Shown here piece by piece: positions 14,379 to 62,299 of a stretch of 64,000 bases of DNA (position 1 is its first letter; each line of letters opens with the position of its first letter). Below the pieces are notes generated by a model. It had not been told where the DNA came from. It saw only the letters and a list, made by a program, of their open reading frames with translations, and searched no databases. The translations under genes and the position numbers were made by a program. Origin of the DNA: Candidatus Sulfopaludibacter sp. SbA3 (GTDB taxonomy: Bacteria > Acidobacteriota > Terriglobia > Bryobacterales > Bryobacteraceae); contig CAMDED010000002.1 of assembly GCA_945893365.1 (NCBI GenBank), forward strand, positions 1 to 64,000, given 5' to 3'.

Positions 14379-14453
<75 letters not shown>

Positions 14454-35861: not shown

Positions 35862-36773
35862 GTGGCTGTGGACCGATTCGCCCTCACCCATCTTCGCGCT
35901 CTGGAAGCCGAAAGCATCCATATCATGCGCGAAGTGGTGGCCGAATTCTCCAATCCGGTGATGCTGTACTCCATCGGAAAAGACTCGTCGGTGATGGTTC
36001 GGCTGGCGCAAAAGGCGTTCTTTCCGGGCAAGATCCCGTTCCCGCTCCTGCACGTCGACACGACTTATAAATTTAGCGAGATGATCGAGTTCCGCGACCG
36101 TTTCGTGAAGGAAATCGGCGCCGATCTCATCGTCCACACGAACCGCCAGGCGATCGCGGATGGCGCGAATCCGTTCCGGCTGGGAACCCAGAAATGCTGC
36201 GGCCTGCTGAAGACGCGGGCGCTGCTGGACGCGCTTACGGAAGGCGGCTTCGATGCGGCGTTCGGCGGCGCGCGGCGCGACGAAGAGAAGTCCCGGGCGA
36301 AGGAACGCGTGTATTCGTTCCGCGACGGCTTTGGACAGTGGGATCCAAAGAATCAACGTCCCGAACTGTGGAACCTCTACAACTCACGCGTGGATAAGGG
36401 CGAAAGCATCCGTGTGTTTCCCCTGTCGAATTGGACCGAATTGGACGTCTGGCAGTATATTCACGTGGAGAACATTCCGATCGTGCCCATGTACTTTGCC
36501 AAAGAGCGCGAGATGGTGGTGCGGGGCGGATCGCTGATTCCGGTGGAGCAGGAGATTCCGCTGCTGCCGGGCGAGAAACCCGAGATGGTTTTATGCCGGA
36601 TGCGCTCGCTCGGATGCAGTCCGTGCACGGGCGCAATCCGCTCCGATGCCGACACGGTGCCCAAGATCATTCAGGAGATGATGCTGGTGCGCCGCTCGGA
36701 ACGGGAGAATCGGGTAATCGACCACGACCAGGAAGGCTCCATGGAAATCAAGAAGCGCGAGGGCTATTTCTGA
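35862..36773 (+). CDS. cysD: Sulfate adenylyltransferase subunit 2
   Basis: A 303-residue PP-loop enzyme that makes adenylyl sulfate (APS) from ATP and sulfate together with the CysN GTPase. [18 protein letters not shown] at the start and [12 protein letters not shown] (PP-loop S37-S42) are diagnostic. [11 protein letters not shown] (about 247) and the closing KKREGYF are also conserved CysD features. It begins at GTG 35862; a second GTG lies two codons on. It is joined to cysN by a 4-base CTGA overlap. The pair is the first step of assimilatory sulfate reduction. Confidence 0.93.
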
Positions 36774-38512
36774 GCGAAATCGAAACCTTTCTTCGACGCA
36801 ACGAAGAGAAAGAGCTGCTTCGTTTCACGACCGCGGGGAGCGTCGACGACGGCAAGTCAACCTTGATCGGACGTCTGCTCTACGACTCGAAAGGCGTTTA
36901 CGAAGATCAGATTGCCTCCATGCGCAAAGCGACGGTCAATCAGACCGCGGGCGCGATGGATTTCTCGCTGCTCACCGACGGGTTGCGCGCCGAGCGCGAG
37001 CAGGGCATCACGATCGACGTGGCGTACCGCTATTTCTCCACGCCGCGCCGGAAGTTCATCATCGCCGATACGCCGGGCCATGAGCAGTACACCCGCAACA
37101 TGGCGACCGGCGCATCCACGGCGAATCTCGCCATTATTTTGATTGACGCCCGCTTCGGCGTGCTGCAGCAATCCCGGAGGCATGCGTTCATCGCCTCTCT
37201 GCTGGCGATTCCGCACATTGCCGTCGCGGTGAACAAGATGGATCTTGTGGACTACCGTGAGGACGTATTCGAACAGATCCGCGCCGACTTCGAGGGCTTT
37301 GCCGAGCAGCTTCAGATCGCCGATGCACACTTCATTCCAGTCAGTGCGCTGCTTGGCGACAACGTCGTGGACAGGAGCGAGCGCATGCCGTGGTTCAAGG
37401 GCGCGCCGCTGCTCGAATACCTGGAGACCGTCCACATTTCGCACGACCGCAACCTCACGGAAATGCGTTTTCCGGTGCAGTACGTAATCCGGCCGAATCT
37501 CGATTTTCGCGGGTATGCCGGGCAGGTGGCGTCGGGTGTGATCCGCAAGGGCGATACGGTCATGGTGCTGCCCTCGGGACGGACCAGCCAGGTGCAGAAG
37601 ATCGTGACGTACGAAGGCGAGATCGCTCAAGCCTACCCGCCCATGTCCGTTACGGTGTGTCTTGAAGACGAGATCGACATCAGCCGAGGCGACATGCTCG
37701 TGCCGCCGCTCGACGCTCCCTACGTTTCGACCCGGTTCGAAGCGATGGCTGTCTGGATGAACGCCGCGCCTCTTGAAATCGGCCGCACCTATTTGGTGAA
37801 GCACCTGACGCAGCAGGTGACGGCTTCGGTGACGGCGATCCGCTATAGAACGGACGTGAACACGCTTGAGAAACAGGAAACGGACCGCCTGGAGCTGAAC
37901 GAAATCGGCGCGATTTCCATCGAAACGCGGCGGCCTCTGTTCTTCGACCCCTATCGGAGGAACCGTACGACGGGCGCGTTCATTCTGATCGATCCGATTA
38001 CGAATTCGACCTTGGGCGCGGGCATGATCACGGACCGCGAAACGGCTGCCGGTCGAAGCGCGGGTTCCCTTCTTGACGCGGTGCGCTATGAGCCGGGAAC
38101 AGGCCCGCGCGTGACGGCCGGTGAACGTTTTGCGCGCGCGGGACACCGGGCGGCGACGGTCTGGCTGAGCGGAGTCGAAGAAATCGCCTATCTGGCGGAG
38201 CGGAAGCTGTTCGACCACGGGTGCCTGGTGCACGTGCTTGCGGGTGAAACGGAAAGCCACATTCTGCCGGAGTTGGCGCGGATCTCAAATGCGGCCGGAC
38301 TGATTACGATCTGCTCGGTGCCCGTTGACGACCCGCAGGAACGGGAGCGTGCGCGAGGCGTCGTGGGCGAGGAGCGCTTCGTGACGGTCGATGCGGCGGC
38401 AATTCCCGGCGGAGTTGATGCCGCGGCCGAAGCCGTGTGCCGGAAGTTGGAGGAACAGGGCATCATCCGCGAGCGGCGAAGCGATCCGTTTACAGGCGGC
38501 GACGGGATTTAG
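36770..38512 (+). CDS. cysN: Sulfate adenylyltransferase subunit 1 (CysN GTPase) fused to a degenerate APS-kinase domain
   Basis: The translation-factor-like GTPase has G1 GSVDDGKST (residues 23-31), G3 DTPGHEQ and G4 NKMD, then beta-barrel domains II/III to about 440. The last 140 residues align with APS kinase (CysC), but where CysC has GLSGAGKST this protein reads LSGVEEIAY (466-474). The ATP-binding P-loop is lost, so kinase activity is unlikely. No ATG, GTG or TTG lies between the cysD stop and the G1 motif; the best start is a CTG at 36770 overlapping the cysD stop as CTGA. The 580-residue length assumes this. Confidence 0.88.
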
Positions 38513-46829: not shown

Positions 46830-46858
46830 TTGACATTTTCCGCCATTCGTACTATATT
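46830..46858 (+). promoter_or_regulatory. Promoter of the Cys-leader/TonB receptor transcript
   Basis: The -35 box TTGACA (46830-46835) and the -10 box TATATT (46853-46858) are 17 bases apart. The expected start site, about seven bases after the -10 box, coincides with the ATG of the 23-codon leader ORF at 46865, so the leader should be translated as a leaderless mRNA. Confidence 0.72.
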
Positions 46859-46864
46859 CGATCT

Positions 46865-46936
46865 ATGAAGTCGAGTATAAGCACAGAACGGCATCGTCTC
46901 ACGGTCCTCCGCTCCGCCTCCACTTGTTGTTGTTGA
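46865..46936 (+). CDS. Leader peptide ending in three cysteines, putative attenuator
   Basis: A 23-residue ORF, beginning MKSSIS and ending RSASTCCC with codons TGT-TGT-TGT-TGA. It has no ribosome site, but its ATG sits at the predicted transcription start. Consecutive Cys codons just before the stop are the hallmark of cysteine-responsive leader ORFs known from mycobacteria and other actinobacteria: ribosome stalling when charged Cys-tRNA is scarce changes expression of the gene downstream. That gene, the TonB receptor, begins 137 bases later. Whether the peptide is made is untested; function is inferred from codon content, promoter and position. Confidence 0.6.
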   Translation: MKSSISTERHRLTVLRSASTCCC

Positions 46937-47005
46937 TTCTGCTTCTTCCATCCACCAGAAGCTCGCGCCCCATTTAACTTCCTTGTCGAAGCGGATGCGC
47001 GGTCC

Positions 47006-47046
47006 TGCGCCCGAAGGGTGCGAGCAATCGTTATTTAATTCATTTT
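47006..47046 (+). promoter_or_regulatory. Hairpin and AT-rich tail in the receptor leader
   Basis: TGCGCCC (47006-47012) and GGGTGCG (47016-47022) can form a seven-base-pair stem (two G-T pairs) around GAA. Eight bases later comes TTATTTAATTCATTTT. It lies between the Cys-rich ORF and the receptor start and might be the structure controlled by ribosome stalling. It is not a standard terminator. Confidence 0.35.
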
Positions 47047-47073
47047 CTAAGAGATAGGAGATATCAAGCACCC

Positions 47074-50000
47074 ATGACAAAGGTAATCTTTCCGATTCTG
47101 GCGCTGGCCATTTCGGCTTTCGGACAGGTGGATACAGGGGCCGTCAGCGGCCTTGTCCACGACGAGTCCGGCGCTCGCGTCACCGCCGCCCAAATCACCG
47201 TCGTCAACGGCGCAACCAATATCGAACAGCGCCTTCTGACGAACAACTCCGGGTATTATTCAGCCCCCTCCCTGCGGCCCGGCGTGTACACCATCCGCGC
47301 AAAGAAGGAGGGGTTCGCCGCCGGCAAACGCGAGCGCATCGAACTGCGGGTCCAGGACCGGCTGGAGATCAACTTCGAGCTGAAAGTCAGCGCGGCCAGC
47401 ACGGAAATCACGGTTTCGACCGAGGCTCCCCGGCTCGAATCCGAAAGCTCCTCACTCGGAAACGTGGTGGCAAACCGCACGCTCATCGATCTGCCTCTTA
47501 ATGGTCGCAACTTCACCCAGTTGGCCACGCTGGGAGCCGGGACGCTGCCTGCGAAGAAGTCCGCGGAACGCGACTCCTTTGTGGCCAACGGTGCGCGCCC
47601 GGTACAGAATAGTTACCTGCTGGACGGCATCGAGAACAAGAATCGGATCGTCGGATTCGACAACGGCACGGCTCAGACTATTCAGCCGGTTCTCGACGCG
47701 ATTCAGGAGTTCAAGGTTCAGACCAGCACCTACTCGGCGGAGTTTGGGCAAGCCGCCGGAGGCGTGGTGAATGTCTCGCTGCGATCGGGAACGAACCATC
47801 CTCACGGCAGCCTTTTCGCTTTTCATCGCAACTCAGCCGTCTCCGCCACTCCGTACTTCCAGCCTTTGCGCGGCGAAAAGCCGCAGTTTCTGCAGAATCA
47901 GTTCGGCGCCACGCTGGGCGGACCGCTCATCAAGGACCGTACCTTCTACTTCGCCAGTTGGCAGAGTTCCCGCGAGTTGAGCGCGGCGCCGCAAGTCTCC
48001 ACCGTTCCCACCCAGGAGCTTCGCGGTGGCGAGTTTGGAGCCCGCGCTATTTTCGACCCCGGTACGACGCGCGCCAACCCGAACGGCAGCGGATTTGTGC
48101 GCGATCCATTTCCGGGAAATCGTGTCCCGGCCACGCGTTGGGATCCCGTCGCGGCGAAGGCGGCCGCGCTCTATCCCGAGCCCAATCTGACAGGGGCCGT
48201 GCGCAACTACTTCTACAACCCCAAACAGACCGTCTTCAGCGACCAGGGAAATTTGCGCGTGGACCATCAACTCTCGCCGAAGGACTCGTTGTTCGGACGC
48301 GTTTCGATCAACGACGGGCGCAACACTCTCCCCACGCTGCTGCCGCCGCCGGCAAGCACCCCTGTCCTCGCCACGCCCACAGCGCAATCGATCGCCGCCA
48401 GCCATACCCGCGTTTTGACCAACACCGCCGTGAACGAACTTCGTTTCGGATTCATGCGCACGCGGCTGCAACAGCAGACGACCGGCGACCGTTTGTTCGA
48501 GTCCTACGGGATCAAGGGCGTCTTCGAGGACCCAACGGTAAAGGGATTGCCCACTTTCGGCGTTACGGGACTCTCGACGCTCGGCACCACGGGTCCAGGC
48601 AATCTGCCCATCGGTTCAACCGGCTCGGGCAACCTGCCTATCGACAAGTGGGGACGCGTGATTCAGTTCACCGACACGTTGAACTGGGTGACGGGCAAGC
48701 ACACCGTCAAGTTCGGAGCGGACCTGCAGGAAGCCAGGCTGTTCGGTTTTGTTACATTGCAGGCGCGGCCGTCCATAAACTTTAGCGGCGTCTATTCGCA
48801 AAATCCGCAGAACCGCGCCGCGACGGGGTCCCCGTACGCCGACTTCCTGATCGGCTACGCCGCCACAACTACGATTTCGAATCGTCCGCGCAACGAAAGC
48901 CGCCAGCGCGTGGCGCAGGGGTTCATCCAGGACGATTGGAAGGCCGGCCCAAAGCTGACCGTGAATCTGGGGCTGCGCTACGAACTCGCGGCGCCTTGGG
49001 TGGAAGTGAATAATCGCCAGTCGAACTTGGTCCTCGAACAAGGGCCGCTATTCGGCAAGCTCCTGCAGGTTGAGAACCTGGCAGGCACCGGTTTCAACCG
49101 TTCCTTCATGGACGCCGACCGGAACAACTTTGCGCCGCGCGTTGGCGTGGCGTACAAGGCCGCATCGAAGACGGTGATCCGGTCGGCGGTCGGTGTTTTC
49201 TATGGCCGTGACGAGAACCTGGGAATTTCGCGGCGCATCACGAACAACCCGCCATTCTTCGTTCGGACGCAGCTCGCCGGCGACCAGGTGACGCCGAACT
49301 TTGTGCTGTCGAAGGGCTACCCGGCTGGGATATTGGAGCCGGCGAGCATGGTGAATCCGGAAGTCAACTCGGTGCCGAAAGATTCGCCGCTCCCCTACAT
49401 CCTGCAGTGGAACTTCAATCTGCAGCGGGAACTGCCCTCGAAGTTCGTTCTGCAACTCGGCTACACAGGTTCGGGCGGACGCAAGCTTTACTACACCAAC
49501 AACATCAATCAGCCGCTGCCGGGCGCGGGAAGCGTGGATGCGAGGCGGCCGGTCCAAGGCTACAGCGGGATTTTCCAATGGGCGCCGCTGTTCAAGTCGA
49601 GCTACCAGGCCTTCACTTCCCAGCTCGACCGGCGCTTTGCCAACGGTTTCAGCATCCTGGCCTCGTACACCTATAGCCACTCGATCGACGACGGTCCGGC
49701 GAGCAGCGAAACCAACGATCCCGCTCCGCAGGATGCGCGTACCCTGAGCGCCAACCGGGGTAGCTCGTCGTTCGATATCCGCCATCGCTTCGTGACGAGT
49801 TACACGTGGGAGCTGCCCTTTGGCCGGGGTAAACGTTGGACCAACGGACCTGGCGCTATCTCGGCGCTGACGGGCGGCTGGCAGATCGCAGGCATCACCA
49901 GTTGGCAAACGGGCTTACCTTTTACGCCGGTACTGAGCTTCGATCCCTCCAACACCGCCACAACGGCGCGGCCCAATCGTCTGGGCGACGGCTCGCTTCA

Positions 50001-50313
50001 CGCCGGCGAGCGCTCGATCGGCCGATGGTTCGACGCGGCCGCTTTCACCGCCGCCCCCGCGTTCACGTTCGGCAATTCCGGCCGCAACATTCTGCGCGCG
50101 CCGCGGCAAACCAACTTCGATGCCGGAGTATCGCGCAGTTTTCGACTCACGGAGCGTTTCGGTCTCAGTTTCCGCGCCGAGGCCTTCAATCTATTGAACA
50201 CTCCGCAGTTCGGTCTCCCCAACGCGACGGTGGGCGTAGCTAACGCCGGAGTGATCGAAACCGTAAGCACGCCGGAGCGGCAACTGCAGTTCGCGCTACG
50301 GCTGGCGTTTTAG
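47074..50313 (+). CDS. Oar-like TonB-dependent receptor under a Cys-codon leader
   Basis: A 1079-residue outer-membrane receptor. A short signal peptide (1-17, ALAISAFGQ) is followed by a carboxypeptidase-regulatory domain (about 20-105, VSGLVHDESGARVTAAQI), a plug (about 115-240, with LIDLPLNGRNFTQLATLG and NSYLLDGIENKNRI) and a barrel ending LQFALRLAF. It differs widely from the receptor at 1.5-4.8 kb. The leader suggests that expression follows cysteine supply, so a sulfur-containing nutrient is a possible cargo. AGGAGA lies 14 bases before the ATG. The TAG stop is formed by a TA and the first base of an inserted IS630 element. Confidence 0.88.
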   Translation: MTKVIFPILALAISAFGQVDTGAVSGLVHDESGARVTAAQITVVNGATNIEQRLLTNNSGYYSAPSLRPGVYTIRAKKEGFAAGKRERIELRVQDRLEINFELKVSAASTEITVSTEAPRLESESSSLGNVVANRTLIDLPLNGRNFTQLATLGAGTLPAKKSAERDSFVANGARPVQNSYLLDGIENKNRIVGFDNGTAQTIQPVLDAIQEFKVQTSTYSAEFGQAAGGVVNVSLRSGTNHPHGSLFAFHRNSAVSATPYFQPLRGEKPQFLQNQFGATLGGPLIKDRTFYFASWQSSRELSAAPQVSTVPTQELRGGEFGARAIFDPGTTRANPNGSGFVRDPFPGNRVPATRWDPVAAKAAALYPEPNLTGAVRNYFYNPKQTVFSDQGNLRVDHQLSPKDSLFGRVSINDGRNTLPTLLPPPASTPVLATPTAQSIAASHTRVLTNTAVNELRFGFMRTRLQQQTTGDRLFESYGIKGVFEDPTVKGLPTFGVTGLSTLGTTGPGNLPIGSTGSGNLPIDKWGRVIQFTDTLNWVTGKHTVKFGADLQEARLFGFVTLQARPSINFSGVYSQNPQNRAATGSPYADFLIGYAATTTISNRPRNESRQRVAQGFIQDDWKAGPKLTVNLGLRYELAAPWVEVNNRQSNLVLEQGPLFGKLLQVENLAGTGFNRSFMDADRNNFAPRVGVAYKAASKTVIRSAVGVFYGRDENLGISRRITNNPPFFVRTQLAGDQVTPNFVLSKGYPAGILEPASMVNPEVNSVPKDSPLPYILQWNFNLQRELPSKFVLQLGYTGSGGRKLYYTNNINQPLPGAGSVDARRPVQGYSGIFQWAPLFKSSYQAFTSQLDRRFANGFSILASYTYSHSIDDGPASSETNDPAPQDARTLSANRGSSSFDIRHRFVTSYTWELPFGRGKRWTNGPGAISALTGGWQIAGITSWQTGLPFTPVLSFDPSNTATTARPNRLGDGSLHAGERSIGRWFDAAAFTAAPAFTFGNSGRNILRAPRQTNFDAGVSRSFRLTERFGLSFRAEAFNLLNTPQFGLPNATVGVANAGVIETVSTPERQLQFALRLAF

Positions 50314-57531: not shown

Positions 57532-60500
57532 ATGCGTCTAAGGAAAAGATCTCTCGCCCGCAGCCACTGGGCCGTCGTGCTGGCCGTTTCCGCCGGGGGA
57601 ATCGCATCCGCGCAGGGCGATGGCGCAGCTTTTTTCGAGAAGAACGTGCGTCCTTTGCTGGCGCAGCACTGCTTTGGATGCCACTCGGCTTCGAGCAGCG
57701 TCGCCATGGGCGGCCTTCGCCTGGACAGCCGTGAGAGTCTCGAAAAGGGGGGCGCGCGCGGCCCCGCGCTCGTGAGCGGTAATCCTGAGCGGAGCCACCT
57801 GATACGGGCCGTCCGGTACGCGGACGAGAAGCTGCGCATGCCGCCCACCGGCAAGTTGAAGGATGCGGAGATCGCCATTCTTGTCCAATGGGTACAGATG
57901 GGTGCGCCTTGGGGCGCTCAGGCAGTGCAAGGCGCAACGAAAGGTCGGGAATATTGGGCCTTCGCGCCGCCAAAGGAATCGCCTCTCCCTGAGGTCAAAG
58001 TCCGCGCTTGGGTGAAGTCGCCCATTGACGCTTTCATCCTCGCCGGACTCGATGCGAAGGGGCTGCGTCCAGCGAAAGCCGCCGATAAGCGCACGCTCAT
58101 TCGCCGCGCCACGTTCGATCTTACGGGACTCCCTCCCACGCCCGAAGAAGTGCGCGCCTTCCTCGACGACCAGATGCCTGACGCCTTCGCCCGCGTGATC
58201 GACCGGCTGCTCGCATCGCCCCGCTACGGCGAGCGTTGGGGACGACATTGGCTCGACGTCGCCCGTTATGCCGATTCAAACGGCCTCGACGAGAACCTGG
58301 TTTACAAGAACGCGTTCCGCTACAGAGACTACGTGATTCAGGCGTTCAATAAGGACAAACCGTATAACCAGTTCATCGTCGAACAACTCGCGGGCGACCT
58401 CATGCCCCCCACGGAGAATCTGGCGACGGAATTCGAGCGCCGGACAGCGACCGGCTTTCTCTCGCTTGGCGCCAAGATGCTCGCCGAAGACGACCCGGTC
58501 AAGATGGAGATGGACATTGTCGATGAGCAACTCGACACGACCGCGCGCGCATTCATGGGCTTGACGGTCGGTTGCGCCCGCTGCCATGACCACAAGTTCG
58601 ATCCCATCCCGACGGCCGACTACTATTCGATGGCGGGAATCTTCAAAAGCTCGAAGACCATGGAGAACTTCAAGGTGGTCGCCAAGTGGCACGAATACGT
58701 GCTCGCGCCCGAGGAAGACCGCAAGAAACTGAAGGCGCATGAGGACTCGATCGAAGCGAAGCTGAAGGAAATCGGCCGGCTCACGAAGGTGGAAAACGAC
58801 AGGCTGGCCACCGCGGAAAGACGGAAGGTAGGCGAGTATCTTCTCGCCGCCGCCGACCTGGAGCGTTACGAGCAGACTCATCCGGCCACGGCGCTCGCGG
58901 AATCCGATACGGCTCCGAAACCCGGCATGGTGGTTGTCGAGGCGGGCAGCTTTACACTGGGGAATGTCCCCAAAAAGCTCGAAAAGGGCAAAAACAACGC
59001 CTTAGACAAGCAAAAAGGTCCCTATTTCGCCCAATATGAAATCACTGTTGCCAGGGCTGGCGCGTATCAGATCGACGTGCTCGACCAGGAAAAAGGCGGC
59101 GGCACGGCGGACATTTGGATCAATGCCGTGCTCGAGAAGCGGGGCGCGGAGCCGATTGAGAATCGTGAAGCCTCTCCCGACGCCGGCGGCTGGTCGGTTG
59201 AGTGCATAGTTCCTCTCGTGGCGGGAAAGAACACGCTCCGGCTGGAGCACAAGTCGCGGTTTCCGTACTTCGCCAAACTCCTGATCGCCCCGAGTGTGCT
59301 GCCGAAGGGCGTGCCGGCGCCCAAAACCGCGGTTCAGACGGCCCGGCAATACGGTATCAACGCGGGGATGCTGGGCCAGTGGGTCGACCAGTTGCGCCGC
59401 TCGAAAGGCGCGCCGAATTCGCCGCTCTTTGCCTGGCTTACCTTCGGGACGGACACCCGTCCGGATGCCTGGACCTCTCCCGCGGCAACCCTGTTCGCCA
59501 AGTCCAAGCCCGCGAACCGCGCCGAACTCGCGGCACGCTACCGGAACTTGTTTTTAGAAACGATAAGGCAGTGGGAGGCGGCAAATCCGGAAGGTGAGAA
59601 ACCCGCCGCAAAGAAGGACGCCGGAACGAAGGAAAGTGAGAAGGAAACTCCGCTCGCCGACTCCGCTTACGAGGCGCTCCGTCAGGTTATCTACGAGAAA
59701 TTCGGGCCCTTCCGCCCGCCAGTGGACTCAAAGCAGTATTATCCGGCGGCAGCGCAGGAACAACTCGCGCGCCTGGAGAAAGAGCACAAGGAGCTGGAAG
59801 CCTCGACGCCGGACCTGCCGCGCGCCATGGGAGTCGCCGAAAGCGCCGTCATCGCGGATTTGCCCATCCACTTGCGGGGCAGCCATTGGACGCTCGGCCA
59901 GGTTACGCCGCGCCGTTTCCTGCGCGTCATCGCGGGAGAGAACCAGCCGCCGCTCGGCGCGCAATCGAGCGGCCGCCTTCAACTGGCTGAGTGGCTGACG
60001 CAGCCCAGCCACCCGCTCACCAGCCGTGTGATGGTGAATCGCCTCTGGCGCTGGCATTTCGGCCGCGGTATCGTACCTTCCACCGATAACTTCGGACGCC
60101 TCGGCGAGCCTCCCAGCAATCAGCCGCTGCTCGACTGGCTGGCGGTTCGCTTCGCCTCGGCCGGTTGGTCGATCAAAGAGATGCATCGGGTCATCATGCT
60201 CTCTAACACCTATCAAATGAGTTCGGATTTCGACAAAGGGGCGGCGGAGATCGACCCGGAGAACCGGCTGCTCTGGCGCGCCAGCAGACTGCGCCTCGAA
60301 GCCGAACAGATTCGCGACGCGATCATGGCCGTGTCGGGCGGTCTCAAATTCGTCGAAGGCGGATCGCTGCTGAGCTACAAGGACCGCCAGTACGTCGCCA
60401 ACACCTCGAAGCGCGGCGCGATCGACTACGACCGCAATATCCGGGCCGTGTTCATCCCGGTGATCCGGAGCTCGATGTATGAGGTCTTTCAGGCCTTCGA

Positions 60501-60849
60501 CCTGCCCGACCCCGCAGTGCCGAACGGCGACCGGGACTCGACTGTGGTTGCGCCCCAAGCCTTGTTCATGATGAATGGCGCAACCGTATTACAGCACACC
60601 AAGGCGATGGCGGACGGGCTGCTTGCGAGGCCCGACGTGGACGACGCGGGACGGATTCGCGACGCCTATGAACGCGCTCTCGGCCGGCCGCCGGCTCCCC
60701 GTGATATCGACCGCGCGCTTACTTTTATCGCGAGCGTCGAGCGTGCGATTGAAGGCCGCAAGCCCTCGGTGGCCGAGCGTCATGCCTTTGCCTGGCAGAG
60801 TTTCTGCAAGGCTCTGATTTCGTCGAACGAGTTTATTTATCTGAATTGA
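57532..60849 (+). CDS. PSD1-type cytochrome c with DUF1549 and DUF1553 domains
   Basis: A 1105-residue exported protein. A planctomycete-type cytochrome c domain comes first (CFGCH at 47-51), then DUF1549 (about 155-370, including SPIDAFILAGLDAKGL, LTGLPPTPEEVRAFLDD and a CARCHDHKFDP motif). A beta-sandwich resembling a carbohydrate-binding module is inserted (about 465-590), and DUF1553 fills about 820-1105 (LTSRVMVNRLWRWHFGRG). This family pairs with DUF1501 proteins in Planctomycetes and Acidobacteria. Its biochemical role is not established; redox chemistry at surface polymers has been suggested. Confidence 0.9.
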   Translation: MRLRKRSLARSHWAVVLAVSAGGIASAQGDGAAFFEKNVRPLLAQHCFGCHSASSSVAMGGLRLDSRESLEKGGARGPALVSGNPERSHLIRAVRYADEKLRMPPTGKLKDAEIAILVQWVQMGAPWGAQAVQGATKGREYWAFAPPKESPLPEVKVRAWVKSPIDAFILAGLDAKGLRPAKAADKRTLIRRATFDLTGLPPTPEEVRAFLDDQMPDAFARVIDRLLASPRYGERWGRHWLDVARYADSNGLDENLVYKNAFRYRDYVIQAFNKDKPYNQFIVEQLAGDLMPPTENLATEFERRTATGFLSLGAKMLAEDDPVKMEMDIVDEQLDTTARAFMGLTVGCARCHDHKFDPIPTADYYSMAGIFKSSKTMENFKVVAKWHEYVLAPEEDRKKLKAHEDSIEAKLKEIGRLTKVENDRLATAERRKVGEYLLAAADLERYEQTHPATALAESDTAPKPGMVVVEAGSFTLGNVPKKLEKGKNNALDKQKGPYFAQYEITVARAGAYQIDVLDQEKGGGTADIWINAVLEKRGAEPIENREASPDAGGWSVECIVPLVAGKNTLRLEHKSRFPYFAKLLIAPSVLPKGVPAPKTAVQTARQYGINAGMLGQWVDQLRRSKGAPNSPLFAWLTFGTDTRPDAWTSPAATLFAKSKPANRAELAARYRNLFLETIRQWEAANPEGEKPAAKKDAGTKESEKETPLADSAYEALRQVIYEKFGPFRPPVDSKQYYPAAAQEQLARLEKEHKELEASTPDLPRAMGVAESAVIADLPIHLRGSHWTLGQVTPRRFLRVIAGENQPPLGAQSSGRLQLAEWLTQPSHPLTSRVMVNRLWRWHFGRGIVPSTDNFGRLGEPPSNQPLLDWLAVRFASAGWSIKEMHRVIMLSNTYQMSSDFDKGAAEIDPENRLLWRASRLRLEAEQIRDAIMAVSGGLKFVEGGSLLSYKDRQYVANTSKRGAIDYDRNIRAVFIPVIRSSMYEVFQAFDLPDPAVPNGDRDSTVVAPQALFMMNGATVLQHTKAMADGLLARPDVDDAGRIRDAYERALGRPPAPRDIDRALTFIASVERAIEGRKPSVAERHAFAWQSFCKALISSNEFIYLN

Positions 60850-60868
60850 GCCCTTGAATTGAGCCCAT

Positions 60869-62299
60869 ATGAATCGACACTGGAACTCTTACCTTAATCG
60901 CACGTTATCGCGGCGCGATCTGCTGCGCGTCAGCAGCGCTGGATTTGGCGGCTTGGCCTTGGCCGGCTTGCTTGGGCAGGAGGCGCGCGCGGCTACCCTC
61001 GGAACAGCCGCCGGTCCGCTCGTGCCCAAGTCGCCTCACTTTGAGCCGAGGGTCAAACGCGTCATCTTTCTGTTCATGCATGGCGGGCCGTCTCAGGTAG
61101 ATACCTTCGACTACAAGCCGCTGCTCAAGCGGGACCACGGCAAGCCGCTACCCTTCAAGCGGCCGAAGGTCGTGTCGAGCGAGACTTTCAATCTTCTGCA
61201 ATCGCCATGGGAGTTCAAACAGCACGGCGAGAGCGGAGCCTGGGTCAGCGAACTATTTCCCGAGTTGGCGAAGAAGGTGGACGACATCTGCTTTATCCGG
61301 TCGATGTGGGGCTCGAATTCGCGCCACGGCGGCGCGCTGCTTGAGATGCACACGGGAAGCGATACGTTCGTCCGTCCAAGCATGGGTTCCTGGATCACCT
61401 ATGGACTGGGCACCGAGAACCAGAGCATGCCCGGCTTCATCACCATCTGCCCCACGCAAAGCCACGGGGGCGCGAACAATTTCGGCTCCGCGTTTCTTCC
61501 CGCGCCCTATGCCGGGACCCCCATCGGCGCAGTGGGAATCCCTGCGCGCGAGGCGAGGATTCCGTTTATCGCGAACACCGAGTCGCCGGTCGATATTCAG
61601 CGCATCGAGATCGACTACATCCAGGAAATGAACCGGCGGCAACTCGAGGGAACCGGTCCCGACCGCGCGCTCGAGGGCCGCATCGAGTCGTTTGAATTGG
61701 CGTTCCGGATGCAGGCCGAAGCTCCGCAACTGCAGGATCTAAACACGGAAACCGAGGCCACGCGGAAGCTTTACGGATTGGACAATCCCATCACGGAAGA
61801 CTTCGGACGCCAGTGTCTGATGGCTCGCCGGTTTTCCGAACGCGGCGTGCGTTTTGTGCAGGTCAGCCATACCTATAAATGGGATCAGCACACTCAATTG
61901 CGGCGCGACCATTCGCAGAACGCCCGCGAAGTGGACAAGCCGATTGCGGGGTTGCTCGCGGATCTGAAGTCCCGCGGGCTGCTGAAGGATACGCTTGTGC
62001 TGTGGGGCGGGGAATTCGGCAGGACGCCGACCGCGCAGGGCTCGGATGGGCGCGACCACAACCCGGAAGCCTTCACGATGTGGATGGCCGGCGGCGGCGT
62101 CAAAGCGGGCCTTCAATACGGCGCAACCGACGATTACGGCTACTATTCCATGGTGAACAAGGTCCACTTCCACGATCTCCACGCAACGATTCTGCACCTC
62201 ATGGGGATGGATCACAAGCGGCTGACCTATCGCTATGCCGGCCGCGACTTCCGCCTCACCGACGTTCACGGGGAAGTGGTTCGAGACATTCTGGCGTAG
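60869..62299 (+). CDS. DUF1501 (sulfatase-fold) Tat-exported protein
   Basis: A 476-residue protein starting 19 bases after the DUF1553 stop. A Tat signal (LSRRDLLRVSSAGFGGLALA) precedes a domain of the alkaline-phosphatase/sulfatase superfamily type: IFLFMHGGPSQVDTFDYKP near the start, RFVQVSHTYKWDQH, and LVLWGGEFGRTPTAQGSDGR with DHNPEAF near the end. No sulfatase Cys signature is visible. Partnership with the DUF1549/DUF1553 protein is the rule for the family; the substrate is unknown. Confidence 0.9.
   Translation: MNRHWNSYLNRTLSRRDLLRVSSAGFGGLALAGLLGQEARAATLGTAAGPLVPKSPHFEPRVKRVIFLFMHGGPSQVDTFDYKPLLKRDHGKPLPFKRPKVVSSETFNLLQSPWEFKQHGESGAWVSELFPELAKKVDDICFIRSMWGSNSRHGGALLEMHTGSDTFVRPSMGSWITYGLGTENQSMPGFITICPTQSHGGANNFGSAFLPAPYAGTPIGAVGIPAREARIPFIANTESPVDIQRIEIDYIQEMNRRQLEGTGPDRALEGRIESFELAFRMQAEAPQLQDLNTETEATRKLYGLDNPITEDFGRQCLMARRFSERGVRFVQVSHTYKWDQHTQLRRDHSQNAREVDKPIAGLLADLKSRGLLKDTLVLWGGEFGRTPTAQGSDGRDHNPEAFTMWMAGGGVKAGLQYGATDDYGYYSMVNKVHFHDLHATILHLMGMDHKRLTYRYAGRDFRLTDVHGEVVRDILA

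Follow-up and report, generated by a model that had tools for sequence, protein, structure and literature searches.

Known Cysteine-Codon Leaders and the Present Locus

Short reading frames with runs of Cys codons near their stop were predicted in 2005 before the cys operons of mycobacteria and propionibacteria and, in the same set, before cbs of B. longum; Rho-dependent attenuation was considered for these leaders, and no conserved terminator hairpin was found (Seliverstov et al., 2005; PMC1262725). Leaderless reading frames containing Cys clusters were subsequently described before cysA2 and nirA in mycobacteria (Shell et al., 2015; PMC4633059), and the poly-Cys leaders of M. smegmatis have been shown to be cysteine-responsive attenuators (Canestrari et al., 2020, as cited in PMC9031893 and PMC13236596). 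For M. smegmatis, a stalled ribosome is described as freeing the Shine-Dalgarno region, which is paired with the leader end. The original prediction had named the control of sulfur genes by poly-Cys leaders in Actinobacteria as its precedent.

The leader described here lies in a 64-kb window (the whole stretch of DNA that was analysed), and in its predicted anatomy it resembles the actinobacterial poly-Cys attenuators. Like the leaderless attenuators of mycobacteria, the leaders that we have identified in Acidobacteriota show a predicted leaderless start, a Cys run near the stop, a position upstream of an operon and several loci per genome, and like those of the 2005 set they show no conserved terminator hairpin (PMC1262725). 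They differ from the mycobacterial attenuators in belonging to another phylum, with an outer membrane, and in their targets, which are receptors, sulfatase operons, PSCyt proteins and an M19 dipeptidase rather than cysA2 or nirA. A shielded ribosome-binding site, moreover, is not a general feature of the acidobacterial leaders. The 2005 leaders, in turn, concern only cysteine metabolism genes and only Actinobacteria (PMC1262725). No report of poly-Cys leaders in Acidobacteriota or before TonB-type receptors was found in the full text of open papers. Cysteine attenuators are known in Actinobacteria; the phylum and the targets described here are new.

A Predicted Leaderless Cys Leader Upstream of an Oar-Like Receptor

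The window leader and the gene that follows it comprise the following features:

46830–46835, + strand: -35 hexamer TTGACA, of which TTGAC is kept in four orthologous loci
46853–46858, + strand: -10 hexamer TATATT, 6 nt upstream of the leader ATG; TATTCT in the orthologs
46853–46872, + strand: promoter/start element TATNNTCKATCTATGAAVTC, conserved and also present at further genes of the order for which a leaderless start is predicted
46865–46936, + strand: leader ORF MKSSISTERHRLTVLRSASTCCC and stop, 23 codons, predicted leaderless
46925–46933, + strand: three Cys codons, TGT TGT TGT, proposed to act as the sensor and followed by the stop TGA
46937–46986, + strand: spacer downstream of the leader stop (C 0.38, G 0.12), a candidate rut-like Rho-loading region
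47056–47060, + strand: Shine-Dalgarno-like AGGAG, 13 nt upstream of the receptor ATG (read by eye)
47074–50313, + strand: Oar-like outer-membrane receptor (PF13620 CarboxypepD_reg and PF25183 OMP_b-brl_4)

The two hexamers are separated by 17 bp and match 11 of the 12 consensus bases; promoter-like sites in this kilobase of the window number 2, compared with 0.4 expected from shuffled sequence. The original prediction, viz. a promoter that sets the transcription start on the ATG of a 23-codon reading frame ending in TGT-TGT-TGT-TGA ahead of a receptor, is confirmed. The reading frame and its ending are present, 137 bases separate its stop from the receptor ATG at 47074, and the six bases between the -10 hexamer and the ATG at 46865 place a canonical start, as predicted from this spacing, on the A of the ATG. 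No terminator-like hairpin was found after the leader in the window, and searches of NCBIfam and Rfam gave no match. Matches to a CCC-stop pattern from three genomes lie mostly within genes or antisense to genes, and among those examined in the source genome the window leader is the sole clean intergenic short leader before a gene.

The barrel of the window receptor matches OMP_b-brl_4 (PF25183) at 2.3e-243, no solved structure related to the receptor by sequence was found, and the 13 nt between AGGAG and its ATG is a long distance. The next ORF lies on the opposite strand and is transposase-like, and no sulfatase adjoins the receptor gene. Elsewhere in the window are a tRNA-Cys gene (anticodon GCA; 14379–14453, - strand), cysD- and cysN/C-like sulfate activation genes (35862–38512; named from translation alone) located downstream of a block of sugar-nucleotide and glycan genes, and a PSCyt/PSD1 (DUF1549/1553) and DUF1501 pair (57532–62299), homologs of which follow the receptor in the orthologous loci L069, L070 and L076. 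The genes at 57532–62299 show about 50% identity to those of the L069 operon, and a split operon comprising them is not claimed.

Conservation of the Leader in Close Receptor Orthologs

A single scan of the receptor alignment against public genomes yielded 65 loci, in which the closest orthologs of the window receptor (L069, L070, L071, and L076) show 77–79% identity to it. All four share TTGAC, a spacer of 17 bases from hexamer to hexamer, TATTCT, CGATCT and the ATG, and their leaders (MNSSDNRRTFLLPCSLPSCCCC, MNSAIGQDRSFLPFGSFCICCCC, MNSTIHRDRCFRSSYVALCCCC, and MNSTVSRDPLLRPSLFLFCCCC) all end in CCCC before the stop, so that CCC or CCCC directly precedes the stop in 5/5 members of the clade, the window included. 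The first residues of the peptide are kept along with the promoter, the start and the Cys run, while its middle varies. Conservation of the reading frame and its Cys codons in relatives, on which the original prediction had been staked, thus holds for the promoter-ATG geometry and the Cys run and not for the rest of the peptide.

A BLAST search of the 291-bp leader region against 40 relatives returned only chance matches (L008, L013, L018, and L031 were inspected); a DNA search of this kind fails because the leader peptide is not conserved, and it is the receptor that leads to the leaders instead. The proposed search for ERHRLTVLRSASTCCC-type endings likewise succeeded only in the window genome, with chance sites elsewhere, and was too narrow because the peptide is not conserved residue for residue. 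The leader-receptor unit is patchy in its distribution, since only four other genomes among the 237 of the family contain an ortholog of the window receptor and the orthologous unit is missing from the genomes G001 and G002 of its own genus. Several receptors at 51–59% identity (L072, L073, L074, L078, and L080) have no clear leader. The partners of the receptor within the window clade are PSCyt/PSD1 and DUF1501 proteins. At L071:7680–7980, leader and receptor are separated by a tandem repeat that includes an N run and could reflect either an insertion or an error of assembly.

The Promoter/Start Element Identifies Further Leaders

We also searched for the promoter/start element alone, making no use of the Cys codons and taking the reversed pattern as control. 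The element has 17 matches in 257 genomes of the order compared with 1 for the reversed pattern, and a related pattern has 18 matches in the 237 family genomes compared with 2. Nine of the matches with short ORFs end in Cys runs, viz. the five already known and four new ones. Of the new leaders, MNGRLRPRVVHRCCCG lies ahead of an M19 dipeptidase, MKSSIGPQHAPLQLPSSARCC and MKSSMCLLHVACCC precede receptors, and MKSSIVFRQVSHIRCRCCCCC is followed by a PSCyt (DUF1549) gene that is 68% identical to the gene following the receptor in L069. Short ORFs without a Cys-run end also occur at the element (L326, L342, and L345), and it starts full-length genes as well (TlpA-like and PIG-L-like), suggesting that this order makes use of leaderless starts. 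In L343 and L344, the ATG of full-length TlpA-like genes lies on the element, so that these genes are predicted to be leaderless.

Cys Leaders in More Distant Acidobacteriota

Distant receptors of the Terriglobales have leaders of their own, ending before the stop in GCSCCC, GCCCCFCCR, GCCCTCCR (the leader of the Granulicella mallensis receptor, L122), CQLCCCCR and others; the leader of the Terriglobus roseus DSM 18391 receptor (L126) is MQSSWISDRAFSEDCQLCCCCR. A leader of this strain is located near position 4,638,379 of NC_018014. On the receptor tree, a leader is present in at least 3 clades. A promoter matching at least 9 of 12 consensus bases in the exact leaderless geometry is found at 10/27 poly-Cys leaders, several of which are close relatives, compared with 1/3152 ATGs of control short ORFs; the Terriglobales leaders L100, L102, and L122 lack this geometry.

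When nine Terriglobia genomes were searched for CCCR followed by a stop, additional leaders came to light ahead of further PF25183 receptors, ahead of a PF03601 protein whose best NCBIfam match is the YeiH family putative sulfate exporter, at a score below the family cut-off, and ahead of an RHS/CBM60 protein. At L302:1023 and L319:933–6881, the predicted leaderless poly-Cys leader MIPVQQTAFPHLDAATVDRCCCCR is followed by a small ORF and an RHS/CBM60 protein of 1983 aa. In isolate KBS 146, a candidate leader, MGRADDSARPICCEMTIAGDAHNLTCCC, precedes a dehydrogenase E1/transketolase-like gene (L186:1005).

Association of the Leaders with Sulfatases and Sulfur Genes

In many relatives, a PF00884 sulfatase lies within tens of bases downstream of the receptor. 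A single automatic detection rule assigns a Cys leader to 20 of the 31 receptors that have a sulfatase directly behind them and to 9 of 54 other receptors (Fisher p 1.2e-5; a few genomes, e.g., L100 and L235, are counted twice), and five of the latter nine belong to the window clade. The same rule applied to nine other residue types gave 0–4/31 and 0–5/54, and on the antisense strand it gave 2/31 and 1/54. The association between leader and sulfatase is not statistically independent of phylogeny; an independent-pairs test on the receptor tree comprised 7 pairs and had no power (p ~1).

The original prediction had also pointed to a sulfur-containing cargo. The gene neighbourhoods of relatives support a link to sulfur, in that they include, besides the sulfatases, a sulfatase-modifying-factor (formylglycine-generating-enzyme-like) protein behind the receptor in Granulicella and, behind other leaders, the YeiH-type putative sulfate exporter and the M19 dipeptidase; in the window itself, no sulfatase lies beside the receptor. 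The best reading of these neighbourhoods is that synteny in relatives links the leader system to sulfur.

Proposed Mechanism and Alternative Explanations

The full explanation that we put forward, and consider probable on comparative grounds, is that the window ORF is a leaderless regulatory uORF that senses charged tRNA-Cys and controls the outer-membrane receptor. The cysteine-sensing reading is based upon the strong promoter on the ATG, the Cys run before the stop, and a receptor that is, in the comparison, often followed by a sulfatase. When cysteine is ample, ribosomes would pass the Cys codons and be released at the leader stop, leaving the C-rich, G-poor spacer bare, and Rho would keep receptor expression low; in some members a shielded receptor ribosome-binding site may do so instead of Rho. 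When cysteine is low, charged tRNA-Cys would be short and a ribosome would stall on the Cys codons, where it would cover the leader end together with the first part of the spacer, and receptor expression would follow. The cargo brought in by the receptor would be a sulfur-bearing compound; in many relatives it may be a sulfate ester that the sulfatase encoded next to the receptor cleaves.

In E. coli, arrest of the ribosome on tnaC is due to the leader's own peptide together with free tryptophan. As in that system, a ribosome held at the leader end could mask an adjacent Rho-loading site; unlike tnaC, the acidobacterial leaders would respond simply to a shortage of charged tRNA-Cys.

In the 50 nt that directly follow the leader stop, the C and G fractions are 0.353 and 0.154, compared with 0.265 and 0.266 at receptors without a leader (P=1.5e-12, with related leaders counted as separate data points), and this excess of C over G is the most general mechanistic feature of the leaders. 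Because this segment is C-rich and G-poor, like a Rho-loading region, and in the window is accompanied by no intrinsic terminator that we could find, as in Rho-dependent attenuators, we favour Rho-dependent attenuation, which a ribosome stalling at the leader end would relieve.

The main mechanistic rival, possible and in our judgement clearly less likely, is purely translational control, in which the leader end pairs with the Shine-Dalgarno region of the receptor and a stalled ribosome frees it with no part for Rho. L071 offers a perfect 10-bp pairing of GTTAGCTCCT with AGGAGCTAAC (P 0.0005; duplex -22.2 kcal/mol, P < 0.001), although in this sequence the repeat with its N run separates leader from receptor, and weaker pairings occur in L069 (P 0.09) and L076 (P 0.03), where masking of the Cys codons lowers the opening energy from 10.6 to 7.9 and from 10.3 to 5.1 kcal/mol, respectively. 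A 9-bp stem also joins the Cys codons and the post-stop region in one Terriglobales clade. In the window, however, such pairing was not detected (P 0.65 and 0.40 in two tests), and masking of the Cys codons did not raise the accessibility of the ribosome-binding site there or at most of 15 loci. Only three sequences (L069, L071, and L076) are consistent with a shielded ribosome-binding site, and the general model, in which a Cys stall frees this site, failed the masking analysis for the window and most loci.

It is improbable that the TGT run is kept for the sake of an RNA UGUUGUUGU arm rather than for cysteine sensing. The bias towards TGT in leaders is strong (TGT 111 : TGC 33, i.e., 111/144, compared with 0 : 8 in four receptors) and in one clade the Cys codons lie in the conserved stem, but this stem is not common to all clades, and the Cys runs, which are interrupted in some leaders (CSCCC, CFCCC, CCSCCCC, CCLCCC), stay in frame beside the stop across leader lengths of 14 to 33 residues. 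The interruptions and the mixture of TGT and TGC speak for the amino acid and against a fixed DNA repeat.

We give still less credence to a working metal- or thiol-binding microprotein made together with the receptor, in place of a regulatory ORF, which the Cys-rich C terminus might suggest, since the peptide varies freely outside its first residues and its Cys run and has no family match. That the leader is a functionless chance ORF of the 5' region, as its shortness and lack of a family match would allow, is scarcely credible in view of the Cys-run/promoter geometry conserved across genomes and the receptor, element and geometry statistics that exceed their controls.

Returning to Rho-dependent attenuation by a cysteine-sensing uORF, we propose that the window leader may be one member of an acidobacterial cysteine ribulon. 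That such a ribulon exists in its full extent, comprising leaderless poly-Cys uORFs, an element shared within the Bryobacterales, and Rho-dependent control of receptors with sulfatases and of other surface and sulfur genes, we hold to be an even proposition.

Significance for the Acidobacteriota

The Acidobacteriota contain many Oar-like receptors whose cargo is not known, and a leader that names the scarce amino acid provides a testable handle on the role of these receptors. The leaders also make one class of leaderless small ORFs predictable in a phylum in which leaderless translation has been little studied. If the proposal is correct, leaderless attenuation in response to cysteine would be no peculiarity of Actinobacteria, these would be the first cysteine attenuators beyond that phylum, and TonB-type uptake would be subject to amino-acid attenuation. 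For soil Acidobacteriota, the leaders would then represent a switch for scavenging sulfur-bearing molecules when cysteine is low.
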